The notes below the pieces were generated by a model. That model was given only the letters and a program-made list of their open reading frames with translations, made no database searches and was not told the DNA's origin. 64,000 nt of DNA from Ianthella basta (taxonomy: Eukaryota; Porifera; Demospongiae; Verongiida; Ianthellidae): positions 8,287,214 to 8,351,213 of the forward strand of contig OZ025869.1 of assembly GCA_964019415.1 (NCBI GenBank), read 5' to 3'. Positions 16,985-64,000 of the stretch are shown here, piece after piece (position 1 is the first letter of the stretch; each line of letters begins with the position of its first letter). The translations under genes and the position numbers were made by a program.

Positions 16985-17018
<34 letters not shown>

Positions 17019-43837: not shown

Positions 43838-44173
43838 TTACTAGTGTATAAAAATTCCTTTAGAATTAAAAGAGATTTAGGAATGGCCAGCAGAAAAAGC
43901 ATAGAAACAAGCAACAGTAACTCGACACCATGATGAACTACATTGCCATGGAGGTCGTTATGCATTCCTAATTTCCTTGTAGCTACATGGGACTAGCTAG
44001 CTAGACATTTGGGACCATGTAGCTAGCTCTACAAGGGAATTAGGAATGCGTAGCGAACTTCATGGCAATGTGGTTCATCATGGTGTTGAGTTACTGTTGC
44101 TTGTTTCTATGCTTTTTCTGCTGGCCATTCCGAAATCCCTTTTAATTCTAAAGGAATTTTATACACTAGTTGG
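43838..44173. repeat. fold-back inverted repeat, ~160-bp arms
   Basis: Arms of about 43,838-43,999 and 44,012-44,173 are about 90% complementary around a short AGCTAGCTAG-rich centre. The arms read GGAATTTTATACACTAGT at the outer ends and contain TTCTGCTGGCCATTCC. There are no coding features, and no flanking duplication was resolved. It is a miniature fold-back transposon or a palindromic duplication. Confidence 0.85.
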
Positions 44174-44179
44174 TACAGT

Positions 44180-47160
44180 TTTTGCACATCCAAAGGTCTA
44201 TGGTTACATCAGATTAATACCAGCGCTGACTACAATACCCCTTCCTTAAATTAGCTGAAGATTGTGTAGAGCATTGAGCACAGCTATGCCCCTTCTAAAT
44301 GAAGCAGCTGCTGTGTACCGTACGGTATACCAGCGCAACAAAATGGTGGCATTGGGGTATTTTTAATACACGGGGAGGACAAATTTCCTGCCCACTCTAG
44401 CGCTGTACTTATTGGATTGCCACAGGCGCTCAGATCCTAGTCCTTGACCTAGGTATGTAAGTCCTCATACACGATTTGGGTCCGTAGGTGCCCTGTGTCG
44501 TGCGCTAGGAGCGCACAAATATTCAGTGGGAAGGAGAACAAGAATAATATGAAAAGACAAAATGGGGTACGAGCAGCCTATTATGCTTTTCTATTATGAG
44601 CACTCCAAGTTGCCTTTGGGTACGCTGCCGTCGTCAATACATCAAAAGAAGCCTATCCATGGCCTTTAATTGTTCTTTGCCACTGCCATTTGGCTAGTTT
44701 CACTGAAGCGCCCAAATACATTAAGATAGGGACGCCATTTTGAACCGGGCACATTCCTAAATAGACATCACGAGCGTGATGTCTGATAATGAGGGTATAT
44801 AAGTATATATTTGTAGCTACTTGCATGGATGCAAGCATGCATGCATTTTAAATCTGCATATATATTGTAACTCTGCTATCTTCATTGATTCTATCTTACA
44901 CGCAGGAGTCCTAGGCACTGAAGGTGGTGCACTTAGTGAGCTGCAGTTCCGACCACAGACAATGCAGAACCTAGGTAAACCACGTAAATCTGTCTATGTT
45001 AGAGGCAGCGTAATAGGGGGTGCAGGAGAGGCTGGAGCCCCCCACCTTGCATGGTGTAGGGGCAAAGCCCCCATTTGGAAACTACCACTCCTTTTTACAA
45101 TAGCTTACTAAAGGCACAGCTAAATGTATTGCCATTTAGTTTGATATTATAACTTAACATAATTTCAAGCTCACATTCATAGTTCTTTAAAGATTCCTCC
45201 TAATCTTCCTCTTCAACTGGTGGCCATTTTAGTCTGAGATAATTAATTAGCAACAACTACAGCTGCTACATGTGTACAGTCAAGTGGCAGAAAAGTACAG
45301 GCCTTCTGTTCATGATTAGCCAACAGTAATGAACATTTTTGCAAGAAACTAAGAATGAATGTGCTGCAAGAGTTGGAGGTGAGCAAAATGAGGACACAGT
45401 AGTTTCTGAAGTATGCATGCGGATGACTCTAGTGTAAGATCAGAAAAGTGTGACTCGGCTGTTACAGTGTACTAGTGGAAATGAACCAGGATCAGGATGA
45501 TTTACCTAGTGTTTGTGAATGCGAAGGTTGTACTGCTGAGGTTAAAGCCTACCAGCCTACTGATAAGTCTACTTTGCAGAAACTCCTCAAGCTTGCAGCT
45601 TATAATAGTGTGAAGTACAGAAATAAGAAGCAATGTAGTGTCCACAACTATTTATTGCACTTTGAGGCACCAATTTGCAGAAGTTTCCACTGCCTGTGCA
45701 TATCCAGAATCACACTCTATGAACACCAAGGGTCGACAAAAACACTTATTTAGCATGTTTGATTCCTGGCTGTGCAGCTAATTCCCCTCTCAGTCCTCAG
45801 CCCCTATTGAGCTGTATTAGAGAACATCCCTTAGCCATACAATGAACACAATAGCTATCTAACTCCATCAATGTAAATCTATGCTGAGGCATTCATGTTA
45901 AGGCTTTGAATGCAGCTCACAAGTTATATTTTTCTTTCCTAGGTAAGCAGATTACCAGGCACTGCGAAGAAGGAATCTGTGCTAATAAGGAAGCCACACA
46001 CTAGCTACAATGTAGTTCTTGCCTCATGTGGCACCACTGTGTGTGTGCTGATGTGGAACCAAAGAAGGCTAAAAGAAAAGATTTTTGTTTGCTGATTTTT
46101 CTGTTGCTAAACTTAATTTCTGTTGAGCTTTTGAATGATTCACCTGCGAGTGGCTGAAAATGGCATCTGACAGTGCATTGTCTCTATAGGCAAACTAGCC
46201 TATAGCTATACGCCTGAACTGTAGCATGATATGTACAAACTGACTCAGCACCGAGCATGGCTTAGCCTTGCATACAGGAGAGGATCCTGGCTAACACAAC
46301 TTGGCTGATCAGGTTTAAATTACCCGCCAAAACAATTGCGTGGGCACTCGGCATCAGTGCTGGGGACCACTGGCCTGCTGCCTGGTCAGGACTTCCTTTT
46401 TTAACTAGCTAACTAGCCAACAGTGAAGCATGACCATTACTTTATTATTCATGTTATAATTTTAGAAATTTATCAAAACTTGATTGTACAAAATAATGTA
46501 CAAAATCTCAATTGCGTGGGTGTCCGTTATTTGATCAGTGTACATCATGCTATTAGAGGACCTGTAGCTTCGTGACCGGTCGACGTCAGACTGCGATTCC
46601 AGGTGTGTGTGGTAATGAATAGTGTACCTTTGTACTACAGTAGCTACGACTGTAATCGCCTCTCCTAGGCAGAGTACAAGTCGATGTCCATTAATAGATA
46701 TTTTTGGCCGCTAATCAATATTTTCAGATTGCGTGGTTTCAGCCCTCTTGCTGGGGAACACAATAGGGGGCCCAGCTTGTTTCAACATATTTTACTCAGT
46801 ATAGTCCGTACTACAAATTCGTGCTGTATTGAGTCAATTCGCCCGGTGGTTAAGAAGATCGAGTGGCCGCTAATACATTGTGCCTGCTAATTGATATCCT
46901 ACTCTACGTACAATGCACACAAGAACACCTGGTTTAAGGAAGAGCTGGAAAGACAACAACCATACACGTACACAGATAGCGCACATATGCACACGCATGC
47001 ACACGCAGACCCAACGCATCCGTTTTCCACGCACTCACAAGCTTCCAGATTATGTTCAACGTTGTTGAACAGGCAGAGTTGCTATGTGATGGCCTGGTAA
47101 CACTTGAAGCCAAGAGTTGCACTGTCCAGGTTAGGGGTTGAGCTCTTGCACAAGGGCAAG
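44180..47160. other. no recognised gene
   Basis: A low-information stretch. Two short open frames stand out: 44,888-45,110 (GTEGGALSELQFRPQTMQNL after an AG acceptor) and 45,475-45,753 (MEMNQDQDDLPSVCECEGCT). Neither is recognised and both may be chance or exon remnants. A GGCTGGAGCCCCCCACC block near 45,030 resembles the G/C-run ends of miniature elements. Confidence 0.35.
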
Positions 47161-47652
47161 AGAGCTAAGCGCCGTGACCCAGATGCCACAGAAGCACCTC
47201 TCCGGCAGACCCGAATTTGGTACAAAACAAGGAGGCTCGTGGTCCCTTCCATTTTGTCACTATACACTGATTTCTCAATTCTACAGCCATTGCAAATTGA
47301 ACTGGGAACGCAATCATTCGTTTTTCAATTTTAGAAAAATTGAATGGCCAAAAGGTACACGGACCATCCACGGACCCCTAAGGTCTGTGTACAGTTCGTC
47401 CATTCCAATTTCCATTTCATTGATGACAAAGAAATGGGACTGGAGGGTCCGTGGATCTTTCATTCATTTGATTTTCTACAAATTGAAAACATGGAAAATC
47501 ACGTTCCCATTTCTCTTATTAATGACAGTGGAATTGGAAATCACCGTAATACCTCATTTAATGGAAGCAAAGCCAGCCCTCTCGCTCTTCACCAAATTCA
47601 GGTCTGCAGAAGAGGCGCTTCTGTGGTACCTAGGCCACGGCGCTTAGTTCTC
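47161..47652. repeat. inverted-repeat element, ~210-bp arms
   Basis: Arms at about 47,161-47,382 and 47,445-47,652 are diverged inverted copies. Each contains CTAAGCGCCGTG at the outer end, CCACAGAAGC, GAATTTGGT and TTTTCAATTT. The central unique part (CCATTCCAATTTCCATTTC) is repeated at 55,055-55,140, so this is a dispersed fold-back family. Confidence 0.8.
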
Positions 47653-48029
47653 GTTTGGCGCCTAGTTCTCGTAACAGCCTAGCCCTAACCCTGACAGCAC
47701 AGATCTTTGGCTGACTTCCAAGTATGCCTATTCCGGTGCCATCGTGTTGCAGGGTCAGTATGTATGAGGTGGTGCGTGTGGAGCACTCTGTCTGTGACAG
47801 TGTACACGTGCTGGCCTGTCGACAAACATTCTGCTAACAGGTGGTGTGGTACAGTGTGTCAGTGTAGTTGAGGACTTTGAAAAAGATGCAGCAGATGACG
47901 ATCGCCCCCTTGTGCACCAGATTGTACCACTCTTCCTGGTAGGTGAATCGTCTTTTCCATACAGCCAGATCCCTTGGTGCCAATGTGTGTGAGAAGGTTG
48001 TGGGTGTATTAATGTGTTTGTATGTGTAC

Positions 48030-48036
48030 ATACGTA

Positions 48037-48070
<34 letters not shown>

Positions 48071-48082
48071 CGTGTGTGTGTG

Positions 48083-48150
<68 letters not shown>
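48030..48150. repeat. (GT)n microsatellite next to hammerhead repeat
   Basis: A long GT run with GCGCGCGC interruptions. GT/CA-rich tracts also adjoin the other hammerhead copies (53.3-54.1, 55.6-56.3, 63.0-63.7 kb), so the tract seems to be part of the repeat family. Confidence 0.95.
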
Positions 48151-48151
<1 letters not shown>

Positions 48152-48469
48152 ATGTTGTGTGTTTGTTGCCGATATGTGACCATTTTTGTCCTATGTTCGC
48201 TAGGTGAAGTCAGCAGTGTTGTGGGCATTAAGGGAGCCATGTGATCCCATCCACATATACTGGCTGGCTTTGCATGGCAGTATGGGCAATATCAACAATC
48301 ACGTGTGTGTGTGTTGTGTGTGTGTGTTCCGTACGTGTGTGTGTGTTGTGTGTGTTTATGTGTCAGGACTCCAATTTGTATGGTCTCAAACCCAACTTTG
48401 ACCATGTCTAGCCAGTGACACAATCTCTCACTCTCTGTCTGTATCTCCCTGCGTTCCTAGGAGGGATAC

Positions 48470-48563
48470 GTCGCACTGATGAAGGCCAACAGCCAGAAAC
48501 AGCTGACCTCACTCTACGTACATTTGTGTTAAAGTATGTAGGGTAATGTCAGCTGTCTGCAAC
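48470..48563 (+). ncRNA. type I hammerhead ribozyme motif HH1
   Basis: Stem I GTCGCA (48470-48475) pairs 5 of 6 with TGCAAC (48558-48563). Core CTGATGA at 48476-48482. Stem II is GGC/GCC closed by an A-A mismatch. GAAA lies at 48496-48499. Stem III is a perfect 9-bp ACAGCTGAC/GTCAGCTGT with a 40-nt loop. Cleavage is predicted after C48557. Confidence 0.82.
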
Positions 48564-49260
48564 TCCCTGTGTGGCATGTCTTTGTTGTCCTAGCTTGCCA
48601 CCAAGTGCTCCTGTCCCTCCAGCTGCATGATGGAATGGCTGTGCCGCCTCATCAGCTTTGCCCTGCTACGCTTAGCTACTGCAACCATTCAATAGCCTGT
48701 TCACACCATGGCCACCCAACTGGACAAGGAAGCTCATCTGCTGAACTGGCAGCCAGCTGCATGGGGCAGGATCCCTATATTTTGACCTTCAAAGTACTGG
48801 TGTAATAGAATGCAGTTGTGTGGTTGGTCTGTGTGTATCATGTTGTCAATTTATTATCGCATAGTGAAGCTTGCTATATTAAAGCAGAGCTTGTGCATAT
48901 GTTTTGTTTTATTGCATTACCATGACATTGTGTATATATCCACAAGACTGACAACTCCTGCAGTAGACATTGCTTTTACCGTCGGCATTGCAACAGTCCA
49001 AATTACATCCTGACCAACTCGGCTAGCTACAAAGTGAGATGAATAGAAAAAATAAAACATTTCAGGATGACTGGTGGCAGATGTACACTGTATGACCTCT
49101 TAGTATTGCCCTAATTGAGACATGGTAACACACAGCTGACAGTTTTACTACATACGTAGTTCCTGTTTGATTCATGTCCATGGGTATACAGGTGGTATTC
49201 TTAAATTTTGGCGCCAAAGCGTGTGCAAACTAGTACTGATTTAACCTTAAACAGGTAGAA
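48564..49260. other. no recognised gene
   Basis: AT-rich spacer between the hammerhead repeat and the decayed integrase-type transposon; nothing else was seen. Confidence 0.5.
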
Positions 49261-49280
49261 TTATTCCTGACCTGTTCATA

Positions 49281-50493
49281 TTGCAAACTGGACTGAAGAG
49301 TGTCTACGGTCAGATGGAGTCACTGTCTCTCAGTATTTCCAGCACGGTTACCTTGACCTGTGATACCAAGGAAATGGAAGTGAACGCTTCCCAAGTCACT
49401 ACCTCTGCAATAGCTCTAATCTTTCATCTAAATCCAGACACTATATGGCTGCAGGAAACAATTGGTAGCCCTATACACATGCCTAATGAAGATGGCTCTT
49501 TCTCACTGGAAAGGTCCGCAATTGCATACGGACTTACAGTCAACGGTGTACCTCAAAGTCAACCGCAGCAAGTCTGCTCCCCGTCTAGTGCCTCCAGTCC
49601 AACTGTGACAACACAAGCGAATACAAGTGGAACTTGCAATGGGAGACCAGCTTTCATCTCCGTGACCAGCAGGAAGACAAAGGTGAAGATTGTTAGAGCG
49701 CACTTGACATATGTGCACAACGGAAAACCCAACTTTGAGAACATCGACGTCATCTTTATCGACATCCACGAAGACAGTGCCGACATTGGGTGCATTCTAA
49801 GAGCTGTGCAGGAGCAGTTTGGACCACACTGCGCAATTGTTTCAAACAATAGCCTTGAAATAAATCATGGACCTGGAACAAGAGGTACGCTACTCGTTGC
49901 TTGTGTTGTATTCCCATGGCTAGACTGTGAATTGATCATGATTCTTAAATAATTGACATTGTTGCATTTTATTTGTAGGTGCCAAGTTTTGGAAAATCCC
50001 CAGCAGGAAACTTTATGCTGTAGACAAAGGGGAACTACGGGGGAAAGCCAAATCAGTACCAAACACTGCAGGGGGCACCTACCGAGGATCACCAGGGGTC
50101 ACACATTTGTCTACTGAAATGAAAGAAGTATTGGATGAATTGAAAGTCCTAAAAAGGCATAGAAAACATTGAATTATCCAGGTGGGCTAATGGCTGGATT
50201 CCAACAACTTTCCAAGATGGATTGATGGATGCAGAATTTGCCAAAACACCCCTTTTGTGCCACCAATCATTCTTGCAAAGTGCTGCACAAACATAATAGG
50301 ATGCCAGACTTGTGTGAACAGATGGTTTTCAGGGCCCAATGCTCTCCAGAGAAACTGTCCAATATGCCAGCAAGAGCGTGGATATGCTCAAACTGTCAGG
50401 CTGCATGCCCTGGACGAGTTAAACAAAGAGGTTAGAAAACTAGTCTCAGTTGCAGATCCTGATTCCAAACAAGCTGCTGACGGTAGGGAGTAG
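49281..50493 (+). pseudogene. RING-domain accessory protein of integrase-type transposon, decayed copy
   Basis: Exon about 49281-49884 is open (NPDTIWLQE, FISVTSRKTKVKIVRAHLTY) and spliced in phase to the exon starting 49979 (GAKFWKIPSRKLY). In the latter, two in-frame stops follow RHRKH. The RING-like C-terminus (CRICQNTPF...CCTNIIGCQTCVNRWF...CPICQQE) then continues in the same frame to 50493. Structure and exon phase match the intact copy at 59,094-60,472. Confidence 0.82.
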
Positions 50494-50886
50494 CTTGATT
50501 TTACTTTACACTACTTGCTTTCCTATTGTGTTCTTGACTGTGTAGATGTACTGCTATGTTGCTGCATCTTACATACTTTGACTTTATTTAGACAAGGTCA
50601 ACTTCTTTTTCTTGAGCTATACTAATTAGTTATGCACTATCTACTTGTTGAACACCTTGAAGCATTTTCGCTTGCTTTGTTGAGTTGTACTATTTGATTG
50701 GCACACTGAAAAAAGTAGAATCTCCCTTCAACTTCAAGTGTTTATAGATGGATGTTACATACTATTGGGTACTATTAGGTACAATATCATAAGTTTGCAC
50801 ACTTTGGTTGAGAATATCTGAATATTCCATGAAGGGTGAAAATTGCAGATGAAAGGTGGAGTTTCCTACCACCAGTGGCGCGCATA

Positions 50887-53354
50887 ATGGTGACCATGAG
50901 CGAGAACCTTGGATTGGAAGAGCTTATTTTGAAGAGAAGAGCGAAGGGCTGCACATATGCTGAGATAAGCGACGAGCTTTGAAGGAAGTTTCCAGAGCAG
51001 AGAGGTTATAACAGTCGCAGTGTTCGACGCTTCTGTGAAGAGCATGCCATTCGATAAAGCTCATGCTTGAGCCAGAGTAGTCTAGAACAGGTTGTTGCCA
51101 CAGCCGTTAGCCAAGTAAGAGAATTGGATGAGTTCAGTACTTTGTCACTATCACCGGTGTCGGTCTGCAATCCAGCAAGCACTTCCTTGTTCACTTTCAT
51201 CCTGGAGGCTCCAATAGATAAGACTGTCGCTATAGGCTACAATTCGTTACCTTATTTAGCTGCAACCACCATCAAGGTGGAGGCCATTTTCTTCACTTGC
51301 CCCCCCCCCGTCATAAGAGCCCATAGGCTACTGTTACGTGAAATAGTATTGTTGCTAAGTACAAAATTTACTACCAAAATCAGTGCAAGGAAGGATTTAG
51401 GTGATAGAGCATCACATCTAGGTACTTCGTCATATCCAGCTGATCCCATAGCAACTACCTGTGAGGCAAAGTCACAATTAGCTCATGGCTAGCTAGCTAC
51501 AAGATCGAGCACATAGTTAGCCAATGCATAGTGAATACAAATGGAAAGATGTACTCCTTCCATTTATACTTGTGCATCTTGTTATATCAAATTACCATGG
51601 TAACCATTTTTTTTACCGTGATATTATGTACCTCCTATAATGGTGATCATACTATATAATTATATATATATATCCCTAACCCAATGATATCTCTTACACA
51701 TAGGTAGGTCCAACATATGGGCGAAAAACTGTGAAGGGTTTACTCCAATTGCAAGGTATAATAGTAGGCGAGAAGCAGGTTGGCCATGCTCTGGCTGAAG
51801 TACAACCACAGTATCATTACCAGCGGTTGACACGAACAGACAGTGAAACAAATCCTCACCCATACTTTGCTAAATATTTTGGTCATAAGGTCCATGTCAA
51901 CCAAAATGAGAAGCTTGTTATGTTTGGAGTTACCCACATAGTGGCAATAGATGGATATAGCAGCAAAATTGTTGGTTTAATTTCCATGCCAGTCAAGAAC
52001 AATGCTGAAATCTACACACATCTGTTCAGATAAGTTATCATCAAATGATTCACATGATTATATGGAATGTACACTGTACTATTCTGACATGTACCTGAGC
52101 ATGTATACATACATGTGAGATATATATTCCATGATATGTACATGCATGTATGCATTCTTGTAAGTAAGGCATTGCATATGTATTTTAAATGAAGCATACA
52201 GAAAATGCAGACTATTGCTCTTCTTATACACCTTAATTTCATGCAGGCCAATTATCCTAGAGTATGGACTATGGGATGAAGTGAGAGTTGACCAAGGGAA
52301 AGAATGGGTCTTGTCTTTGTATGTACAAGAACAACTGGCTCACCTGCGAACAAACAGAGCCAGATCACCCCATTTACAGAGTACGTCTAAGAAGGTAATA
52401 CTGTAATACTGTGACAGATGCACAATTACACTCGAGCTGTGGAGATACAACCTGTCATCTTCATGCTGATAGGTTGCTTCCATATCCACCCCAAGTTCTA
52501 CACTTGTGGTCTGAACAAAATTAGATAAGAGCTCTATAGTCAGTGTTCTCTATAGGCAATTTTGGAGGGTGCTACACCCCCTATTGTGCAAACGTACTCC
52601 CCATCAATGTTTCAGTGGCTGCTGCACCCCCATAATGAACCATGCCTGTATCTTTCACTTCTTCGCCTTTGGCGGAACAACGTACAGATTCTGAAGACGA
52701 TCAAAGGGTGCAAGTTTTATACCATGTGTAACTGTACGTTTTCACATTAGTGCTTTGGACGTGACCCCCTGCAGCCCCCCTTGTTCCCAGTTTTGGTGAG
52801 AACACTGACTATAGTATAGCAGGCCAGGAGGTGTACTGCCTAGTGACTGACATCTATCAATGTGAGCTACTTTGACTTTTCAGAATCACAAAACTGAACA
52901 TTTTTGGGTGGAGATTAATAAGAGGGTAAACTACCCCATCAAGAATGTTCTTGTGGAAATGCAAAACAACCATAGCATTAGAACAGAAGACCAGAGAGAC
53001 AGCGTACACTGCTTTTGTGTTTCATGGTTTACCTTAAGAGTGGCTGCAGTGGGGACAAGACTGGCTGTGCAAGCCTGGAATGAACATCCTATACCAGGTA
53101 CAGTATGACATCTTTGCAAAAACGTGACTAAGGGCACTATATGCTTATGGCAATACTATTATACACAATGTCATGCAGCAGTAGTATAGATACAGTGCAT
53201 AACATAATGGAATAATTTCAGAAAGGATGTCTTTATTTCCATATCACTGTAGGTCAGGGAATACCTAATCAACGAGCACAAACTAGCAGAGCAGCAAGGG
53301 TGAACCCAGTGTTGGTTCCAACCCCCAATGAGGCAGTGTCAGACTTTCAGCACG
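50887..53354 (+). pseudogene. integrase-fold transposase, decayed copy
   Basis: Exons: 50887-51114, 51704-52029, 52247-52394, 52884-53097 and 53253 to about 53354, homologous exon by exon to the intact copy at 56,673-58,727. Lesions: TGA after ISDEL and TAA after HAIR in exon 1; the first catalytic Asp is Asn (HVNQNEKL); the donor after exon 2 is AT instead of GT (52030); the last exon is cut off by CA-rich hammerhead-repeat sequence. The second Asp (VRVDQGKEW) and the Glu (NHKTEHFW) remain. Confidence 0.88.
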
Positions 53355-53541
53355 TGTGTGTGCATGCGTTGTGTGTTTGTTCTGCATGTATACACCCCAT
53401 ATACGGCACACACAGCATGCACACACAACACAATTTGCCACATCCTGCAGCAAATGTTCGATGAGGGCTGGCCCTCTCCCTTCCTACATATTATCCCTTC
53501 TCCCTAGCACACATTCTCTTCCCCTCCTTCAATCTTGGCAA

Positions 53542-53597
53542 ACTGCAGACATCCATAAAGATGGTTGTTTCGGGCTGTTGGCCCTCATCAGTGCAGT
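53542..53597 (-). ncRNA. canonical hammerhead ribozyme HH2
   Basis: Every element of a type I hammerhead is present in 56 nt. Stem I ACTGCA/TGCAGT is a perfect 6 bp. Core CTGATGA is at plus 53585-53591. Stem II GGGC-CAACA-GCCC has the expected G-C closing pair. GAAA is at plus 53568-53571. Stem III is ACA.CCAT with loop CTTT and ATGG.TGT, with one A-A mismatch. The cleavage triplet is GTC, predicted cut between plus 53548 and 53547. This is the best-formed copy in the window. Confidence 0.9.
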
Positions 53598-53959
53598 GCA
53601 GCCAAGCAAAACGGCTACCAGACGACACGATACTATTCACAGGCACCCACTGGACCATCCAACTGGACATGGACTGCCTGCCAACAACAACACTGCCCAC
53701 ACATACCCACACATCAAGAGCAGGTCAATTATACCCAAAAATACCCCCAGGCCTACCAACACACATTCCCACATTAGGTGCAATTTGCGCAACCATAAAC
53801 CTATGTAATTGCACACACGCGACACACACAAGCACTCACAACAATTAACAAAATGGAACCCAAACACAGAATCCCACATGGAAACACACATACAAACGTA
53901 TTGTACATATGCACACATACTCTCACATGTGCGCACACAACACACCTTTGGACACTTGA

Positions 53960-54180
53960 GGAATGCAGGGACATCTGGCTGCAGGCCTTCATCAGTGCAA
54001 TGTATCCCTCCTAGGAATGCAGGGAGATACAGACAGAGAGTGAGAGATTGTGTCACTAACTAGACATGGTCAAAGTTGGGTTTGAGACCATACAAATTGG
54101 AGTCCTGACACGTAAACACACATGACACACGCACACGTATGTTTCTGGCTGTTGGCCTTCGTCAGTACAACGTATCCCTC
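53960..54180 (-). ncRNA. two degenerate hammerhead cores HH3 and HH4 in tandem
   Basis: HH4 (about 54,140-54,176) has CTGACGA, GGC-CAACA-GCC and GAAA, but no matching stem I 3' strand. HH3 (about 53,975-53,996) has CTGATGA and the GGC/GCC stem but has lost GAAA and stem III. The spacing between the two cores is about 180 nt, and the sequence between them matches 48,361-48,470 in inverse orientation, so they are units of the same repeat. Confidence 0.65.
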
Positions 54181-54432
54181 CTAGGTAGTGATGTAACAGG
54201 AAGTGAGAGGGAGGAAGGCCCATATACCATGCTCTGGCGTGAACTGTGGCCTGAACTGTGAACGTAGGTGAGTGCTCGTCCCTGGGAAATAAGGTTAGTT
54301 ATGTGCACTGTTCAGTCCCCGCTTCCTCATGAGAAGTTTTGTTTGCCAGTTTTTGTCCCTATTCAGGAGTAGCGTGAGTTTTGTTTGTATTACAGCATAC
54401 AAACAACCACTGCCATCCCTACATAGACAGCA

Positions 54433-55040
54433 CTACCATGCTGTCTGATATACAAGATGCTGCAAGCGCATCCTCGGATGCCAGTCCTGTGTAGATTCGT
54501 GGCATGCCGGTGAAGAAGGAATGACAAAGAAGTGACCAATCTGCCGAGATGAACGGGTATATGCTGACACAGCCAAGTTGAAGGAATTGGATGATTTTCT
54601 TGAGGTGATAACCCCCATCCTACACAGGGAGGTGACCAAGATTGAAGCAGCTGCAGTCAACAGAGAGGAAGAAGCACCATGATTGACCATGACGAGGACC
54701 ATTATAGCCAGGACCTGCTCTATTTAACTGTGGCATCGTGCACACTGCTGTTGAGCTATTGTTTTATCCATTCATTAACTTAATATAATCTTGTAACAAG
54801 ATATTTATGCTGGCTACATTCATTGTTTGTAACAATAACAAAACGTATCGTAAACGATCCAAAGCGTCTTCAACTTGTTTCAATATCGAAAGGTTTTGGC
54901 TGTAATATCACTAGTCTAGCTGACTAAACTATAATATCACTAGTACTGGCGTCGAAAATCTAATTTTTGGCGGTTCTATCTGTGATGGAGAAGATTCCAG
55001 GACTGTATGCTCAAGTTCAGCATGACATGTTACAAAGGAC
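54433..55040 (+). pseudogene. fragment of integrase-type transposon, third copy
   Basis: Inverse orientation to the intact copy. It matches 59,330-58,675: the end of the RING gene (CASSDASPV, stops, frameshifts), the intergenic part, and the start of the transposase exon 1 (ATGGAGAAGATTCC at about 54,984). It stops at about 55,040, where a copy of the 47.4-kb inverted-repeat centre begins. It lacks the roughly 70-bp hairpin insertion seen at 58,787-58,858 in the intact copy. Confidence 0.85.
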
Positions 55041-55300
55041 CCACGCGGTCCGTGTATATTCCGTCCATTCCAATTTCCATTTCTTTGACGGCCAAAAAAT
55101 GGAACTGGAGCAGTATTTTTCCATTTCCTTGAAATGAAAATTGAATTTCACCATGCAAAATTCAATATTCAATCTTTTTTCTGAAATGAATATTGGATTG
55201 TGATGATAGAAAGCGATGTTCGATCCTCAATCATAATTGAATATTGAATATTGAAATCGAGATTGAATATTTCCATTTTCAATTTTTCGATCGGTCAGAA
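55041..55300. repeat. dispersed repeat shared with 47.2-47.65 kb, then AT-rich stretch
   Basis: GTCCATTCCAATTTCCATTTC and GGAACTGGAG match the centre of the inverted-repeat element at 47,161-47,652. It is followed by an AT-rich, partly palindromic stretch (GAATATTGAATATTG) up to the start of the large palindrome. Confidence 0.7.
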
Positions 55301-55887
55301 TCGTACCGCAAAACGCATAATGACGTAACAGTAAGCGAGCACGAGGATTGCGACATCGCCAGAGAGGGGGAAGACCCGTATACCAGGCTCTGGCATGAAC
55401 TGTGGCCTGAACTGTGAACGTAGGCGAGTGCTCGTCTCTAGCCAGTGCCAGGACGGTTGCCAGGAGGACATGCTTTCCGTAGAAGGGCGGTACGGCTCGT
55501 TTAGACGTCAGCACGCGTGCATACGGTAGGCGACTGCTCGAGTCATCGAAGACAGTAGTAAATGATCGTCGGTTTTTGTGTGCGTGTTTGTTTGTCGCTG
55601 TTCTGTGTAAGTGTGAGTGTCGGGGGGTGCGTGCGTGCGTGCGTGCGTGCGTGTATGTGTGTCTGTGCGCTTGTGATGTGTGCGTGTGTGTTGTGTGCAT
55701 GTGTTGCATGTGTGCTTAATGATTGCATGTATGTACACGCTTGAGTTGGTGTGCGTTGTTTTTCTGTTCAGCCATAGAAGTAACTTTGCTAAAGCATATT
55801 CGAAAGCATGTGTGTTAGTGCTTATCTTTGTGCCTATGTGCATTTGTGTACCCGAGAGTGCTGTCTGTAGCTATAGGGTTAGGGTGT

Positions 55888-55971
55888 GTTGCACTGATGA
55901 AGGCCAACCAGCCAGAAACAGCTGACAGCACCCTGCATGTGCCCACTAGAGTGATGTCAGCTGTCTGCAAC
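55888..55971 (+). ncRNA. type I hammerhead ribozyme HH5
   Basis: Stem I GTTGCA/TGCAAC is a perfect 6 bp (55888-55893, 55966-55971). Core CTGATGA at 55894-55900. Stem II GGC/GCC with an A-A closing mismatch. GAAA at 55915-55918. Stem III is a 10-bp perfect ACAGCTGACA/TGTCAGCTGT (55918-55927, 55955-55964). Cleavage is predicted after C55965. Confidence 0.88.
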
Positions 55972-56397
55972 TCCTTGTGGTTTACTTATGCGGGTGAGTG
56001 GATGTGAATGCTATGTGCCAGTGGCTGGGCGCCAATGAGGTCATAATACGGTAATGGCTGTCAGGTGAAATGTGTAGGAACTGCTGAATTTGATTTGACA
56101 ATGTCTTTTGTTTGCATGACACTACATGGAGTGGTTATTGTAGGAAAATGTACTTCAATTGACCAATGACCTCATGTTGATCACTGTAAATGTGTGTGGG
56201 TGTGGGTGGGTGTGGGTGTGTCTGTGTGTGTGACTGTGTGGTTGGTGTGTGCACATGCATGTGTTAGAATAAGTCTGTCTTTTAGTGTTTCGGTCACTTC
56301 ACTTTTGTATGCCCAACTCTGGAGTCTGTCCCTGTCTAGGAAGGGTGCGTTGCACTGATGACGGCCAAGTAGCCAGAAACAGCTGACAGCAGCTGTC
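55966..56397 (+). other. 432-nt retrozyme-like monomer bounded by two hammerhead cleavage sites
   Basis: The stretch from the predicted cleavage site of HH5 to that of HH6 would be released as a linear 432-nt RNA with 5'-OH and 2',3'-cyclic phosphate ends from any plus-strand transcript, ready for circularisation. It begins TGCAACTCC and ends CAGCTGTC, and is largely non-coding, with a GTGGGTGTGGGTG-rich tract. It is mirrored at 62,904-63,335 on the minus strand. Confidence 0.75.
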
Positions 56398-56403
56398 TGC
56401 AAC
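56349..56403 (+). ncRNA. compact type I hammerhead ribozyme HH6
   Basis: Stem I GTTGCA/TGCAAC, perfect. Core CTGATGA at 56355-56361. Stem II GGC-CAAGTA-GCC. GAAA at 56376-56379. Stem III is a perfect 7-bp ACAGCTG/CAGCTGT with loop ACAG. Cleavage is predicted after C56397. The whole motif is 55 nt. Confidence 0.88.
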
Positions 56404-56672
56404 TCCCTGTGTGTTGTATGATCGTACTGCATACATGCCACACTGTGTGTATATATATATGTGTTAGGTGCATATACGTAGGATCTGTTGTGTGATATAC
56501 TGATTACAAGTCAATCACATGCTACAGTGTTCCCCGTCATGTGGCATTCATGTGGACCAATCGCTGAACAGATTTTGACGATTTGCTCCTTGTGTCATGC
56601 ACTGATAATATGCATGATGTCAGCATGTATACACAAAAGTCTGCATTCATATTATGATACCAATTAAAAGCA

Positions 56673-58727
56673 TCATTTGGACAGAGACAATCTGTGGGTT
56701 ACATCTGTGAAGAACAACAAAGCTGTTTCAAATGATTCTCCATTGTCATTTACAACACTGTCAAATATGCTTTCCAGTGAAAACTTCCTTTCGAATGCTT
56801 CTTCTCTCATAGCTTTTTTCTGCTGGTCATCACTCAATGGGTCCATCCCATAAGCCTTCGGTGCAGTGATATGTCCTCCACTGCTCTCATAGCTTGCAAC
56901 TGCATCCGAAGGTAATGGCAATAATGCAGATGGGATATCCTTTGTTCGATTGTCTCGTAGTTGTAGTTCATTTGGTATGCCTCGTGGCATACTGTCCTTG
57001 TGCCCTAAGCACGTGTATGCGTTGATGAACAAAAGAGCCAGGGTAAAAGCATACAATGATCTTATGGTTGTGTAATTATGTCTCAATTGTATATCTAGCT
57101 TGTATAAGATGTATAGCAACACTGCATGTTTAAAGTAAAGCTAACAGCACTAGGTGTGTTTCATGATATTACAATAAATGTACATACCTGGAATGCGGTG
57201 ACTGTTCCAGGCTGCAATGAAACGAGATAATCCAACATTGGCAACCTGTATTACAAGCCAGGAGCAGCAGTACTGGTGCAGTGGATGGTCGGTGATTTTT
57301 CCAGCTTCTAGCATCTTGACGAGCACTGCCTTAATTGGGTAGTTCACCCTCTGATTTACCTCCACCCACATTCTCTCGACAGTGTGATTCTATGTATGAA
57401 GTGTGCAGATGCAAATATAAACAAATGTATAAGTTGTGCACAGTCAATGTGCATTTAATGGCTACACTAACATTACTCTTCAGTAGATTCCAAATATAAT
57501 TATAATAATTATTATACATCCATTTGCAGGTATAGCTAGCTGTTACAGTACTGTACTTCAGCATTACATTTACATAATATATAGTACGAAAGTAATAATA
57601 TACCTTTTTTGATGATGAAGCAATAAAGGACGGCTTGTCAGTGCAGTTCCTGTGGTCAGCCAAGCCTTCATGCACATGGAGCATCAAGACCCATTCACTT
57701 CCATGGTCAACCCGCACCTGGTCCCACAGTCCATACTGCATTACCATACTTCTACAAAGACAAAATGAAGCATATATATATAAACTATATTAGAGTGTAC
57801 ATCAGTGTGCATCATCATTATTATAGGGCTGTGCTTGTATATGCTCACCTGTATAGATGATCATAAATAATGACACAGTTCTTTATTGGCATTGATACAA
57901 ACCCGACAATTTTTCCACTGAATCCATCAATTGCACAGACATGGGTGCATCCAAACATTACGAGCTTTTCATTCTGGTCAATATGCACCTTTTCACCAAA
58001 GTAGTCTGCCCTGTAGGGAACTGGATTGGTGTGTTGCAAAGTACGGGTCTGGCGCACTGCATGGTGAGATGGATCAACCCTTTTCAGAGCAGCTCCAATG
58101 CGTATCTCTGAAACTCGGTAACCCTGAGCTGCTAAAAAGCCTGCCATCATCTTCCTCCCATAGCTGGGACCAACCTGGGTGATGTACAATAGTAGTGATA
58201 TCAGTTCAGGTATTTCATGTAGGTTAAGGGATGGGAACTATGGATGTCTGCAAATCCCAGCATAGGATAAGACACTGCATGCATTTTCCTGTGATGTCAC
58301 AGGTTGAAGGTTATTATTTAGGACATAGGCCACACACACAAGCTTAAAGCACGACGTCATTCACTGCAGAGTGTTAGATCATTATGCCAATCAGAACACA
58401 GGGCACGGTGAGACAAACAAGCACGCACGGGGATGAGAAACTACGAATTTATTTTGCCTGGCCTAATTATAAGGTGACTCCGTGCGTTAACTAGCTCTAG
58501 CTAACCTTAGCAATCCCAGATGCAACAACTTTATCGAGGTGAAGGTCCGACAGACCAGACGATGAAGTAATACCATGGCTGGCGCAGAATCGTCGGACAC
58601 TCCTTTCACTAAACCCTCGCTCCCCTGGATACCTCGCCTGTAGCTCCACGGCTATTTGAGCGTGGGTCATTCCCCTTTGTAATATGTCATGCTGAACTTG
58701 CGCGTACAGTCCTGGAACCTTCTCCAT
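56673..58727 (-). CDS. integrase-fold (DDE) transposase, intact, 5 exons, 409 aa
   Basis: Minus-strand exons 58506-58727, 57849-58174, 57604-57751, 57188-57389 and 56673-57004 join with GT-AG borders into 410 codons with no stop. Residues 1-74 form a helix-turn-helix-like region (MTHAQIAVELQARYPGERGF, SERSVRRF). The core has D140 in HIDQNEKLVMFG, D198 in VRVDHGSEW and E237 in NHTVERMW, giving a D-57-D-38-E spacing as in integrase/IS3-like enzymes. The C-terminal exon starts GHKDSMPRGIPNE. The start ATG (58727) follows the RING gene on the same strand by 366 bp. This family resembles the IS3EU/Ginger-related eukaryotic transposons; the exact superfamily is not certain. The last three exons are copied in the palindrome's right arm. 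Confidence 0.9.
58175..58505 (-). other. intron 1 of transposase gene
   Basis: Contains no other feature. The donor is GTTAGC and the acceptor CACCCAG. Confidence 0.7.
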
Positions 58728-58786
58728 CACAGATAGAACCGCCAAAATTAGATTTTCGACGCCAGTACTAGCGATATCATAGTTTG

Positions 58787-58858
58787 GCCAGCTAGACCAT
58801 CGCATCAGGCGCCAGGGGCCCCTCGGCGCTTGTTGGGACGGTCTAGCTAGCCAGACTA
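58787..58858. repeat. short hairpin insertion between RING and transposase genes
   Basis: Inverted ends GGCCAGCTAGACC and GGTCTAGCTAGCC surround a GGCGCC/GGCGC-rich loop. It is absent from the third transposon copy at 54.9 kb, so it was inserted (or lost) after the copies separated. Confidence 0.65.
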
Positions 58859-59093
58859 GTGATATCACGGCCAAAAACTTTCGATATCGGAACAAGTCGA
58901 AGGCGCTTCAGATCGTTCACGATACCTTTCGTTATTGTTACGAACCATGAATGAAGTCAGCATAAATAACTTGTTACAAGATTATATCAAGTTAATGAAT
59001 GGATAAAACAGTAACTCAATGGCAGTGAACATGATGCCACAGTACTAGTTAAATAGAGCAGGTCCTGGCTATCATGGTCCTCATCATGGTCAA

Positions 59094-60472
59094 TCATGGT
59101 GCTTCTTCCTCTCCGTTGACTGCAGCTGCTTCAATCTCGGTCACCTCCCCATGTAGGATGGGGGTTATCGCCTCAAGAAAATCATCCAATCCCTTCAACT
59201 GGGCTGTGTCAGCATATGCTCGTTCAGCTCGGCAGATTGGGCACTTCTTTGTCATTCCTTCTTCACCAGCATACCATGAATCTACACAGGACTGGCATCC
59301 GAGGATGCGCTTGCAGCATCTTGTATATATTATGGGAGGTGCCATGGGTGTCGAAATGCATATGTTGCAGCGGAAAGTGTCGAACAGAACTTGCTTAAGC
59401 CCAAGAGGCACCTTGCTCTCTGGAGTCAACTTCAGAACGGTCTGAAGGTCACGATGGATGCTTCTCACGTCCTCCATTATGGATGCAATTTCTGCCGAAC
59501 CACAATCACCCTTCTTTCTTTTTGCTGCCGGTGTCAAAGGACTGTCCTCATCATCGTCCTCATAGTCAGAAAGCACTGGCATCTTCCTTCCTTTTCCCTT
59601 TCCCCGCTTCTTCATAATCTCATCTTCTTTCACGCCAAAGAGCTTACGGCTACCCGTCTTCCAGAACTTGAAACCTAAAAATTAATTATTAAATTATTTA
59701 AAATCCAAGAATTTTGCTCATGATCAGTGCACACACTCATTCATAAATTTCTTGTATAATGTCATGTTTCTTGACACCAAAGCACTCACCTTGTGTGCCT
59801 GATGAATCTTCAAGTTCTAGACCATCCAGAGTAACCAGTGTATACTCTGCACCCCACCTCTGCCTCATGATATGCTTCACGTAAGAAACACTTGCTGTTG
59901 CATCTGTGACATCGATGTACGTTTGGCCTATTTTGTTGAAGGTAGGCTTTCCAGACGCCAGTCTGGACATGGTGGCTTGCACCACCTTTACACTCACCAA
60001 TGGCACACTTCTTCTTGCGATAAAAGGTGGCCTGGACGATGGCCCACTACTAGGGCCAGGTGTTGCAACTGTTGTCATATTCGAAGTGTTTGGTGCTTGG
60101 TTAGGCTGTCCCTGCACAACCATTGATGGCATGGTTAAGCCTACTTCAAGCGGCAAATCAAAGCTGGTTCCACTGGTGTCAGGGAAGTAAGCCCTGTTCC
60201 CGAATTCTTCTTGCAACCACACACTAGAAGGATCAAGCTACATGAGTAAGACAGAATAATGAAAGACTCGTTAGTACGATTTTGGACATTGTATATACGT
60301 ACGGAGCCCAGTGTCCTGGTCCCGAAACGTGCGAACACGCACTTCAACTATAGTGTAGACTAACCGAAAAAATTCTGGAGACTCTCTGTGGGGTGATCTG
60401 CTGAACAAGAAGGTCAACGGGTTCCTTCCCCTCGCGTACAAGCCTGACAATGTCTTCGCCGAACATAGACAT
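59094..60472 (-). CDS. RING-type accessory protein of integrase-type transposon, intact, 378 aa
   Basis: Exons 60365-60472, 59790-60237 and 59094-59674 with GT-AG borders give 379 codons with no lesion. The start ATG is at 60472. Residues 1-185 are a novel N-terminal region (WLQEEFGNRAYF; PTFNKIGQTYIDVTD) also found in the decayed copy. Then come a basic/acidic linker (KKRGKGKGRK, DYEDDDED) and a C4-rich RING/U-box-like domain at residues 288-334 (CNICISTP, CCKRILGCQSCVDSW, CPICRAE). The tandem arrangement with the transposase on the same strand is preserved in two copies, so it is an element gene rather than a captured host gene. Its role is unknown; ubiquitin ligation or transposase folding are guesses. 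Confidence 0.85.
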
Positions 60473-61487
60473 TCCGCATCCAGTAGCTAGCTAGCTAGTA
60501 CTCGCGCCGGCGGGAACTCTTTGAGGCAATTGTGCGCATGCGTACGAACTTGAAAACGAGCGCGCTGGATAAGTTTGTGGCAAATTCAAATTGAACGCCG
60601 ATGCATTTTCAACGATTTCTATAATTGCATCTATTCTGTCTTAGTCTTGTCCCCAGCTCACTTCCGGCCTCCATTTTACCATGGCCATGATAAAATGGAG
60701 GCCGGAAGTGGGCTAGGGACAGGGTACCATTTTAGGTCGTAACACCTCAGCGCCTGACCGGAAGTCTTACAAAGTGGCCATGTGGGGTCAACAATAATAT
60801 ACACACAACGAACACCGTGAGCACAGCTGTAAGTGTTGTCATGCAGTCTATCTAGATCTAGCCCTAAACTTTCTTCAACCAGCTTCCTCTGCAGCTGATT
60901 GTCCAGAGCATAGGACAAAACAGAAGACAGCAAACAATGAATGAATGCCAATGCATTCTGCCTCACACACACTGAATGAGACATACTGAACAGATGGACA
61001 CTGTGGTCTCTGCAGTAGAGAACACAGGCCAAGGAAGAACCATACTATATACAAACACAGACAGAGAGAGAAACACCAAACCTGAACTGCACACATGCTG
61101 TATGATACATTACACAATGTATAGAAAGTTAAAGTGGTTCATTATCACTATCAAGTGCATTAAAATTGGTATGGACAACTTGTACACTGACCAGGTCGGC
61201 ACCTGCTTCAAAGTACATGCAGGGACTTCAGAATTCTGCATTGCTGCAGAGTAAATTGAAAACTGCATGCCCATGTGACTGCACCATGGACCAATCACTA
61301 AGGAGCAAGTCGTCAAAATCTGTTCAGCGATTGGTCCACATGAATGCCACATGACGGGGAACACTGTAGCATGTGATTGACTTGTAATCAGTATATCACA
61401 CAACAGATCCTACGTATATGCACCTAACACACATGTATATACACACAGTGTGGCATGTATGCAGTACGATCTCACAACACACAGGGA
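60473..61487. other. palindrome spacer: hairpin and unrecognised sequence
   Basis: It holds the 5' flank of the RING gene, including an AGCTAGCTAG block and GCGCATGCG, and a 72-bp near-perfect hairpin at 60,649-60,720 (arms CACTTCCGGCCTCCATTTTA and complement). At about 61,290-61,487 comes the start of a hammerhead repeat that is a direct repeat of 62,711-62,897. No gene was seen. Confidence 0.5.
60649..60720. repeat. 72-bp hairpin repeat
   Basis: GTCCC..GCTCACTTCCGGCC is mirrored by GGCCGGAAGTGGGCTAGGGAC around CATGGCCATG. Arms of about 31 bp carry two mismatches. It looks like a solo miniature inverted repeat. Confidence 0.75.
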
Positions 61488-61542
61488 GTTGTAGACAGCT
61501 GCTGTCAGCTGTTTCTGGCTACTTGGCCGTCATCAGTGCAAC
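61488..61542 (-). ncRNA. type I hammerhead ribozyme HH7
   Basis: The same compact fold as HH6 (CTGATGA, GGC/GCC, GAAA, stem III ACAGCTG/CAGCTGT), with one stem I mismatch (TACAAC instead of TGCAAC). It lies 20 bp outside the inner end of the right palindrome arm. Confidence 0.82.
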
Positions 61543-61562
61543 GCACCCTTCCTAGACAGGGA

Positions 61563-62628
61563 CAGTATGGACTGTGGGACCAGGTGCGGGTTGACCATGG
61601 AAGTGAATGGGTCTTGATGCTCCATGTGCATGAAGGCTTGGCTGACCACAGGAACTGCACTGACAAGCCGTCCTTTATTGCTTCATCATCAAAAAAGGTA
61701 TATTATTACTTTCGTACTATATATTATGTAAATGTAATGCTGAAGTACAGTACTGTAACAGCTAGCTATACCTGCAAATGGATGTATAATAATTATTATA
61801 ATTATATTTGGAATCTACTGAAGAGTAATGTTAGTGTAGCCATTAAATGCACATTGACTGTGCACAACTTATACATTTGTTTATATTTGCATCTGCACAC
61901 TTCATACATAGAATCACACTGTCGAGAGAATGTGGGTGGAGGTAAATCAGAGGGTGAACTACCCAATTAAGGCAGTGCTAGTCAAGATGCTAGAAGCTGG
62001 AAAAATCACCGACCATCCACTGCACCAGTACTGCTGCTCCTGGCTTGTAATACAGGTTGCCAATGTTGGATTATCTCGTTTCATTGCAGCCTGGAACAGT
62101 CACCGCATTCCAGGTATGTACATTTATTGTAATATCATGAAACACACCTAGTGCTGTTAGCTTTACTTTAAACATGCAGTGTTGCTATACATCTTATACA
62201 AGCTAGATATACAATTGAGACATAATTACACAACCATAAGATCATTGTATGCTTTTACCCTGGCTCTTTTGTTCATCAACGCATACACGTGCTTAGGGCA
62301 CAAGGACAGTATGCCACGAGGCATACCAAATGAACTACAACTACGAGACAATCGAACAAAGGATATCCCATCTGCATTATTGCCATTACCTTCGGATGCA
62401 GTTGCAAGCTATGAGAGCAGTGGAGGACATATCACTGCACCGAAGGCTTATGGGATGGACCCATTGAGTGATGACCAGCAGAAAAAAGCTATGAGAGAAG
62501 AAGCATTCGAAAGGAAGTTTTCACTGGAAAGCATATTTGACAGTGTTGTAAATGACAATGGAGAATCATTTGAAACAGCTTTGTTGTTCTTCACAGATGT
62601 AACCCACAGATTGTCTCTGTCCAAATGA
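61563..62628 (+). pseudogene. duplicated 3' half of integrase-fold transposase gene
   Basis: Carries part of exon 3 (61563-61697), exon 4 (61912-62113) and exon 5 (62297-62628) of the transposase, identical in translation to the left arm, including D in VRVDHGSEW and E in NHTVERMW. Exons 1 and 2 with the first Asp are absent, so it cannot make a working enzyme. Confidence 0.92.
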
Positions 62629-62897
62629 TGCTTTTAATTGGTATCATAATATGAATGCAGACTTTTGTGTATACATGCTGACATCATGCATATTATCAGT
62701 GCATGACACAAGGAGCAAATCGTCAAAATCTGTTCAGCGATTGGTCCACATGAATGCCACATGACGGGGAACACTGTAGCATGTGATTGACTTGTAATCA
62801 GTATATCACACAACAGATCCTACGTATATGCACCTAACACATATATATATACACACAGTGTGGCATGTATGCAGTACGATCATACAACACACAGGGA

Positions 62898-62952
62898 GTT
62901 GCAGACAGCTGCTGTCAGCTGTTTCTGGCTACTTGGCCGTCATCAGTGCAAC
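62898..62952 (-). ncRNA. hammerhead ribozyme HH8 (mirror of HH6)
   Basis: Identical to 56349-56403 by palindrome symmetry. Confidence 0.88.
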
Positions 62953-63329
62953 GCACCCTTCCTAGACAGGGACAGACTCCAGAGTTGGGCATACAAAAGT
63001 GAAGTGACCGAAACACTAAAAGACAGACTTATTCTAACACATGCATGTGCACACACCAACCACACAGTCACACACACAGACACACCCACACCCACCCACA
63101 CCCACACACATTTACAGTGATCAACATGAGGTCATTGGTCAATTGAAGTACATTTTCCTACAATAACCACTCCATGTAGTGTCATGCAAACAAAAGACAT
63201 TGTCAAATCAAATTCAGCAGTTCCTACACATTTCACCTGACAGCCATTACCGTATTATGACCTCATTGGCGCCCAGCCACTGGCACATAGCATTCACATC
63301 CACTCACCCGCATAAGTAAACCACAAGGA

Positions 63330-63413
63330 GTTGCAGACAGCTGACATCACTCTAGTGGGCACATGCAGGGTGCTGTCAGCTGTTTCTGGCTGGTTGGCCT
63401 TCATCAGTGCAAC
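63330..63413 (-). ncRNA. hammerhead ribozyme HH9 (mirror of HH5)
   Basis: Identical to 55888-55971 by palindrome symmetry. With HH8 it bounds the mirrored 432-nt monomer at 62,904-63,335 on the minus strand. Confidence 0.88.
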
Positions 63414-64000
63414 ACACCCTAACCCTATAGCTACAGACAGCACTCTCGGGTACACAAATGCACATAGGCACAAAGATAAGCACTAACACACATGCTTTCG
63501 AATATGCTTTAGCAAAGTTACTTCTATGGCTGAACAGAAAAACAACGCACACCAACTCAAGCGTGTACATACATGCAATCATTAAGCACACATGCAACAC
63601 ATGCACACAACACACACGCACACATCACAAGCGCACAGACACACATACACGCACGCACGCACGCACGCACGCACCCCCCGACACTCACACTTACACAGAA
63701 CAGCGACAAACAAACACGCACACAAAAACCGACGATCATTTACTACTGTCTTCGATGACTCGAGCAGTCGCCTACCGTATGCACGCGTGCTGACGTCTAA
63801 ACGAGCCGTACCGCCCTTCTACGGAAAGCATGTCCTCCTGGCAACCGTCCTGGCACTGGCTAGAGACGAGCACTCGCCTACGTTCACAGTTCAGGCCACA
63901 GTTCATGCCAGAGCCTGGTATACGGGTCTTCCCCCTCTCTGGCGATGTCGCAATCCTCGTGCTCGCTTACTGTTACGTCATTATGCGTTTTGCGGTACGA

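Follow-up and report, generated by a model that had tools for sequence, protein, structure and literature searches.

Hammerhead ribozyme motifs facing inward in the terminal inverted repeats of rva_4-related DNA transposons of the sponge Ianthella basta

Nine hammerhead motifs and two transposon copies in the window

The window, a 64,000-nucleotide stretch of the genome of the sponge Ianthella basta (C2:8287214-8351213 of a 209-Mb assembly of 96 contigs), holds towards its right-hand end two copies of DNA transposons, designated E1 and E2, whose ends carry motifs of the self-cleaving hammerhead ribozyme. Scanning both strands of the entire window with a relaxed core pattern returned exactly nine hammerhead-like motifs between 48.46 and 63.43 kb, at 48476(+), 53591(-), 53995(-), 54165(-), 55894(+), 56355(+), 61536(-), 62946(-) and 63407(-), in agreement with the positions given in an earlier note made from the letters of this DNA alone. 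Seven of the nine were found to be well formed, with stem I, stem III and a GTC triplet, as the note had also described; those at 54165(-) and 53995(-) are decayed. The type I core (CUGANGA, GAA, an A15.1-U16.1 pair and H17) was likewise present in seven of the nine. The ACAGCTG that the note ascribed to every copy is absent from 53591, 53995 and 54165. The nine motifs are not independent copies, because 62946 and 63407 lie within 61563-64000, an inverted duplicate of 55301-57738, and 61536 lies within 61300-61565, a 98% copy of 62710-62975; the ninefold recurrence first noticed therefore holds as a count of sites, three of which duplicate others.

A narrower pattern gave eight matches in the window against 0.84 expected, seven of the eight lying within the cluster, and none of 100 shuffles reached eight; chance origin of the motifs is ruled out by these window shuffles together with reversed-pattern controls on the genome. 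A covariance model of the hammerhead family (R1), built from 12 copies, recovered the nine motifs in the window with E-values from 6.5e-30 to 1.1e-8, the next of the 36 matches listed having an E-value of 0.49; these values are not independent, since four of the nine motifs were in the training set and three more duplicate those. As a partial independent check, 13 further genome sites were fetched via Rfam RF00163 (12 over its cut-off and one below), and all 13 were recovered by R1 at 28-60 bits, with 11 of the 13 passing the RF00163 cut-off on rescan. The Rfam scan of the window returned no family at gathering score. Its best hammerhead match, Hammerhead_HH9 at 53525-53609(-), was the sole one at a relaxed threshold over 44000-64000 (E 0.0059), and the top hammerhead match in eight element loci scanned with Rfam had 26.8 bits, under the cut-off. 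Among the outcomes that would refute its reading, the earlier note had named the lack of a hammerhead model hit above threshold; taken literally with Rfam there is none, the best match having 26.8 of 52 bits.

The features of this part of the window are given below; T1 (example L001), T2 (L007), T3 (L009) and T5 (E2) are transposon subfamilies, TIR stands for terminal inverted repeat and ORF for open reading frame, and the training set is that of R1.

47446-53956 (about), plus strand: element E1, remnant of a T3-like DNA transposon, with left terminus GGTCCGTGGATC and the outer right end missing; blastn pieces against the L008 element, 66-87% identity
48458-48573, plus strand: hammerhead in the E1 left end, T5 type, A.A at 10.1:11.1, inward; R1 71.2 bits, E 8.8e-21, in training set
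49251-49949, plus strand: first ORF of E1 (accessory protein), from the ORF list; similar ORF in L009
50191-50490, plus strand: RING-like accessory ORF of E1; the L001 RING-like protein matches at 42% identity
51704-52030, plus strand: transposase core exon of E1, with Asn at the inferred first catalytic Asp (HVNQNEK)
53532-53609, minus strand: hammerhead in the E1 right end, inward, the only canonical copy in the window (G-C at 10.1:11.1); cut predicted to follow 53548 of the minus strand (own count); R1 99.0 bits, in training set; Rfam HH9 26.8 bits, under its cut-off
53974-55038, minus strand: piece of a further T5-like element that contains two decayed hammerheads; matched in inverted orientation by 48332-48497 and by parts of 58674-59328
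53953-54013, minus strand: decayed hammerhead, GAAA and stem III lost; R1 34.5 bits
54107-54183, minus strand: decayed hammerhead, CTGACGA, stem I pairing lost; R1 40.3 bits
55041-55046, no strand: E2 target-site duplication CCACGC, repeated right after 64254
55047-64000, minus strand: element E2, T5 DNA transposon of 9208 bp, with its far end at 64254 beyond the window and with minus-strand genes; each end has the terminus GGTCCGTGTATA, and there is a 6-bp duplication
55047-57738, plus strand: E2 left TIR, 2692 bp, 99.9% identical to the right TIR, with 2438 bp of it 100% identical
55876-55981, plus strand: inward-facing hammerhead 848 bp from the E2 left terminus; R1 73.2 bits, in training set
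56337-56413, plus strand: inward-facing hammerhead 1309 bp from the E2 left terminus; R1 79.5 bits, in training set; also by fold
56676-58237, minus strand: E2 transposase exons (57848-58237, first Asp; 57334-57789, second Asp; 57153-57389, Glu; 56676-57140, C-terminus); a related L031 exon matches PF24764 rva_4
58500-58907, minus strand: helix-turn-helix-like ORF of E2, upstream of the transposase core; likeness by eye to L001 and L009 ORFs
59097-59681, minus strand: RING-like accessory ORF of E2; matches zf-C3HC4_3 (E 0.0022) and zf-RING_2 (E 0.0054), neither reaching its cut-off
61478-61554, minus strand: additional hammerhead, immediately inward of the E2 right TIR; R1 73.5 bits; in the 61300-61565 copy
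61563-64000, minus strand: E2 right TIR, continuing to 64254
62888-62964, minus strand: hammerhead in the E2 right end, inward; R1 79.5 bits
63320-63425, minus strand: hammerhead in the E2 right end, inward; R1 73.2 bits

E1 is probably an inactive transposon, because Asn replaces the inferred first catalytic Asp.

Pairing, covariation and conservation of the hammerhead

Standard pairs make up 96.1% of the pair cells in an alignment of the 12 copies (shuffled mean 87.1), both sides are changed in 23 cells against a shuffled mean of 7.0, and the covariation score is 0.307 against 0.157 in shuffles; none of 500 shuffles reached any of these values. Two further counts in the same alignment were not beyond shuffles, namely pairs with change on both sides (6; reached by 60 of 500) and further pair types (12; reached by 427 of 500). 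Among 17 genome variants, 95.6% of stem pairs are standard, compared with 83.1% in 2000 strand shuffles (largest 88.6%). The exchange of AC-TGCA for GT-TGCA in stem I, which the earlier note had taken for compensatory change, is real in both sets, and the covariation in both likewise upholds its expectation that stem pairing would be conserved among genome copies. The constancy of the core letters in the 17-variant table proves nothing, as the script demanded CTGATGA, GAAA and the C that precedes the cut. In a hammerhead found by R1 (L051), two of the four stem II pairs are altered (GACC/GGTC), together with several stem III pairs, and pairing is kept. Across the 17 variants, loop III is 4 to 63 nt long once the first six pairs are set aside, and 13 of the variants have all of the first six positions of helix III paired.

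The G10.1-C11.1 pair usually closes stem II and is of importance in hammerheads. It is G-C in 11 of the 17 variants and A-U in one. The minimum-energy fold is the hammerhead for the motif at 53532-53609 and for that at 56337-56413, and stem I is wholly or partly disrupted in those of the motifs at 55894 and 48476 and of L001. Folding energy alone is weak evidence, with z from -5.1 to 0.0 over seven sequences. The motif is real and structured, and a conserved type I hammerhead family, its pairing kept by compensatory change, is supported, with cleavage predicted.

Conservation was compared between the ribozyme and its surroundings in nine diverged copies. Mean pairwise identity within the hammerhead was 0.908 with the search-pattern letters included and 0.885 without those 25 letters, as against 0.16-0.56 in 53-nt flanking windows, where gaps were scored as differences, which lowers the flank values. 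Comparison of TIRs between subfamilies, with low-complexity filtering applied, showed that those of T1 and T3 have no more in common than the terminal 24 bp plus 35 bp of the hammerhead (the search pattern covers 26 of those 35), and that a single 28-bp piece is shared by those of T3 and T5 besides the hammerhead and the terminal 31 bp. T1 and T2 have the last 26 bp in common, along with 375 bp, 62% identical, in which the hammerhead lies, T2 and T5 share the hammerhead and two other stretches, and T1-T5 and T2-T3 share more. That the ribozyme is kept alike while neighbouring DNA diverges suggests that a DNA-only mobile element uses it.

The near absence of other matches between the TIRs of T1 and T3 and of T3 and T5, beyond the motif and the terminal 24-31 bp, is also what would be seen if the motif were a signal at the level of DNA, a palindromic binding or cleavage site for the transposase, and not an RNA. 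Such a signal is highly improbable, in that stems I and III change letters with pairing kept, loop III varies from 4 to 63 nt and the motif lies anywhere between 848 and 2217 bp from the end; the constant unpaired core letters count little here, because most copies were found by those letters.

Transposon anatomy and association with the transposase across the genome

The genome was searched for hammerheads by letter patterns, and such patterns miss variants. Two patterns gave 42 and 64 matches and the reversed control none; the matches are often in inverted pairs, five of which are 7248 bp apart. Ten elements with two ends (L001-L008, L020 and E2) were measured; they were chosen because of their hammerheads, so the presence of hammerheads at both ends is no test, and L009, whose outer left end is missing, was not counted among them. 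All ten have GGTC[A/C]GTG ends, and their inverted arms are 98.4-100% identical over 1.0-2.7 kb in elements of 3.8-10.6 kb. Perfect 6-bp target duplications flank seven of them (L001 AACTCC, L004 AGGAAA, L006 AAACAG, L007 GGGAAG, L008 ATACAA, L020 GACCCC and E2 CCACGC). The remaining three (L002, L003 and L005) are near-identical 9.2-kb T1 copies with intact ends and without a matching target duplication. The nearest inward hammerhead lies 848-2217 bp from each terminus, and E2 has one further hammerhead at 2719 bp.

The elements carry a first accessory ORF, a RING-like ORF whose zf-RING matches are below cut-off, a helix-turn-helix-like ORF and integrase-type transposase exons. The exon with the last catalytic residue was compared with Pfam rva_4 (cut-off 26) and scored 28.3 bits in T2 (L031:3703-3936) and 23.1 bits, below the cut-off, in T1 (L001); other transposase core exons had 14 bits or no match, and D, D and E were assigned by eye. 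In a whole-genome rva_4 scan, T2 copies pass only together with neighbours in frame. The first transposase core exon of the subfamilies is 57-79% identical to that of T1. Judged from these matches and from their termini, the ribozyme-bearing elements are integrase-type (rva_4-related) DNA transposons with long TIRs. In viral contigs, four stretches match a peptide pattern, none of which encodes a relative of the transposase core, and the canonical core gave no match.

A genome search with the transposase core only gave 27 best-scoring candidates, a lower bound, from which one (the second piece of the same gene) was dropped to leave 26 loci. An own inward-facing hammerhead was found within 10 kb, by the 64-match pattern, at 18 of the at least 26 transposase-only loci, 11 of them with a facing pair and seven with a single one; six of these seven are T2 copies whose second end was not established. 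Among 45 canonical rva_4 loci above 100 bits, a hammerhead was found within 10 kb at one. At L046:452-539 (C2:7817069) a hammerhead lies 4.1 kb from a decayed canonical rva_4 integrase. There is a hint that the association of hammerhead and rva_4 may be older than the RING-bearing lineage.

Further hammerhead families were seen in the genome. T6 (L040, at 637-753 and 1455-1571, and L051:2970-3052) occurs on contigs C18, C7, C11, C2, C4, C19 and C74, mostly within about 0.25 Mb of contig ends, and at nine places by our own count its ribozyme faces a second hammerhead-like match, below the Rfam cut-off, 1.7-4.3 kb off; the one such partner read, in L051, differs in part of its stem letters, and its pairing is retained. 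In T7 and T10 an additional base stands between CTGATGA and stem II. No transposase of the rva_4-related kind was found within 10 kb of the T7, T8 and T10 hammerheads (L043, L044, L047, L048 and L045), and GGTC-type termini looked for around T7-T10 hammerheads were not found where expected. Dispersed hammerheads with a minimal stem III (L059-L064, L066-L068 and L071; mostly GAAACAGCTGTC) all pass Rfam RF00163, ten of ten, and resemble the type described for Penelope-like elements.

The existence of other families, one of them with a minimal stem III and passing Rfam, together with a decayed hammerhead in L039, would be in keeping with a passenger, that is, an ancestral retrozyme or Penelope-type hammerhead captured in a TIR and merely carried. 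We consider this very unlikely, as the peak of conservation falls on the ribozyme and the ribozyme is present in subfamilies as far apart as the core identities to T1 given above.

Transposon termini at 47365, 47382 and 47446 in the window, and at 64254-64480 (L002) beyond its end, lie from a few to about 220 bases apart, as if insertion had taken place beside the ends of older copies. A near-perfect palindrome of about 70 bp at 60648-60721 matches several microRNA models below cut-off and looks like a small palindromic repeat, not a microRNA. Penelope-like pieces with a GIY-YIG domain (PF01541; minus-strand copy scanned) form two inverted copies at 16857-19827 and have no adjoining R1 hammerhead. 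Two large minisatellites, at 4346-6090 and 21450-24661, have related 21-bp units, TAGGATGCACTGGACCCCATA and TATAGGACGCACTGGACCCCA. At 27089-29584 a DDE_Tnp_4 (PF13359) transposase ORF stands next to an opposed 231-aa ORF without a Pfam match, a layout that we take to resemble Harbinger elements.

Possible role of the ribozyme and comparison with known systems

The anatomy, placement, inward orientation, conservation and covariation of the hammerheads, and the structure of the transposons, were read directly from the DNA. We consider it probable that type I hammerheads are built into the ends of rva_4-related transposons, facing inward, where they cut transcripts that enter the element and separate the TIR arms. 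Complete copies carry at least one inward ribozyme at each end, 0.85-2.2 kb from the terminus, and a transcript starting in or crossing a TIR toward the genes would contain that ribozyme in sense, fold and cut itself after GTC. The cut would leave coding RNA with a 5'-hydroxyl end, parted from the outer 5' repeat. Its most likely effect is that read-through RNA would be less able to form the long double strand that triggers silencing, because both full repeat arms would no longer be in one molecule to snap back; the element RNA would also gain a uniform 5' end. That the RNA is cut inside cells, and that the element profits from this, are both inferred.

That uniform end brings in a close rival, in which the ribozyme generates the 5' end of transposase mRNA, the part that self-cleaving ribozymes play in R2 and other retrotransposons, and may aid cap-independent translation. 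In T1 (L001), T3 (L009), E1 and E2 the genes are read away from one TIR, whose ribozyme stands in sense upstream of the first ORF; in a review, 5'-end processing and translation start are named as the likely role of retroelement ribozymes (PMC7761336), and R2 carries a 5' ribozyme according to the abstract of PMC3414825. We nevertheless hold 5'-end maturation to be rather unlikely as the explanation, given that the RING-like ORF and transposase exons of T2 (L007) are divergent and that DNA-level transposition does not need an exact RNA 5' end.

Where ribozymes stand in tandem in one TIR, as in T5 (461 nt apart), they could release linear RNA to be ligated into a circle as in retrozymes, so that the element would be a source of circular or small RNA. 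Two same-facing ribozymes are present in the left end of E2 and of L020 and also in the right end of E2, and tandem hammerheads occur at 54165/53995, L037 (one of two decayed) and L040; circular RNA from T5 elements is thus possible. As an account of the ribozymes it is distinctly unlikely, since L001-L008 have one pattern-matching ribozyme per end and T5 repeats only the ribozyme region, not a whole unit.

Several observations weigh against the separation of TIR arms by inward ribozymes. Rfam cut-offs are unmet throughout the window, although covariation and conservation are judged to outweigh these sub-threshold scores. Six of the seven well-formed window motifs, the T5 copies, have A.A or C.A at 10.1:11.1, only that at 53532-53609 having the canonical G-C, and T5 copies may for that reason be weak ribozymes. 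By pattern, eight of the 26 transposase loci are without an own hammerhead: four belong to one related subfamily, at two the only match belongs to an adjacent element, and the last two are canonical rva_4; the one member of the subfamily that was read, L039, has a decayed hammerhead only (25.6 bits). Conversely, 32 of the 64 hammerhead matches have no such transposase within 10 kb, some of them lying at the ends of truncated or non-autonomous copies (L010, L020), and the hammerheads of T6, T7, T8 and T10 sit in other repeats. L020 has one extra hammerhead facing outward, and the ribozymes of L007 lie inside its 99% identical arms, in inner arms that are only 86% identical. By subtraction, the coding RNA would after the cut retain inner repeat ranging from none (L007) to about 1.3-1.8 kb (E2). 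Avoidance of TIR-TIR double-stranded RNA is the putative purpose that we favour. As a tentative proposal, slightly less likely than not, the self-cleaving ribozyme would belong to the standard equipment of a class II (cut-and-paste) transposon and be kept there by selection, facing inward at both ends, cutting transcripts that enter the element and perhaps stopping silencing by TIR-TIR double-stranded RNA. That would be a use of ribozymes apart from both retrotransposition and rolling-circle RNA replication.

If hammerheads are a conserved part of DNA-transposon ends, their host is one without an RNA stage, and the job of the ribozyme must then concern the transcript itself, because such a host does not pass through RNA. 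This raises a testable question, whether cutting of TIR transcripts protects the transposon from RNA silencing or sets up its mRNA. For repeat annotation, it would follow that the presence of a hammerhead is no proof that a retroelement is there.

In the literature, as far as the available texts go, the hosts named for animal hammerheads are retroelements, satellites and viroid-like RNAs. Other hosts are known as well. Within the accessible portions of the open-access papers searched (including PMC6431247, PMC8490949, PMC7761336 and PMC7229834, with most subscription papers, preprints and Repbase outside the scope) no hammerheads were reported in DNA-transposon TIRs. The pairing of a hammerhead with a class II TIR appears to be new within this searched literature; the transposon itself could already bear a name.

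The motifs resemble the Rfam families RF02275 (Hammerhead_HH9) and RF00163 (Hammerhead_1) in fold, core letters and GTC site, with the window copies scoring below the cut-offs. Animal retrozymes, to which the earlier note had assigned them, consist, according to PMC7229834, of tandem repeats of 150-450 bp that contain a type I hammerhead. The type I hammerhead and the many genome copies are alike in the two, but retrozymes are gene-less tandem repeats as far as that source shows, and the present elements are kb-sized, most with a transposase, and have 6-bp duplications. A retrozyme was rejected on two grounds: the repeated unit around the motif is only 42 bp (spacing 170) and 88 bp (spacing 461), and the motif lies 0.85-2.2 kb inside 3.8-10.6-kb elements with long TIRs, the larger ones with transposase exons. 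What stands of that assignment is a type I hammerhead family with its pairing kept and conserved beyond its surroundings; the retrozyme kind does not.

Penelope-like elements and Terminons likewise have hammerheads within the terminal repeats of an autonomous mobile element (PMC6431247 and PMC7761336). They are there described as retroelements with a minimal helix III, whereas the present elements are DNA transposons with a longer paired helix III, and no Pfam match to a Penelope-type reverse transcriptase with GIY-YIG was found in the 20 scanned ORFs of L001, L007, L009, L031, E1 (one ORF) and E2. For IS3EU and GingerRoot, PMC10045372 gives TA..TA termini (in GingerRoot occasionally TG..CA) and 6-bp target duplications. 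An integrase-like transposase and 6-bp duplications (seven of ten elements here) are common to both groups. The termini differ from those of IS3EU and GingerRoot, and the present elements are for that reason called rva_4-related and not IS3EU; by comparison with TA..TA as so described, they are set apart by GGTC..GACC termini (ten of ten), TIRs of 1.0-2.7 kb, a RING-like ORF and the hammerheads.

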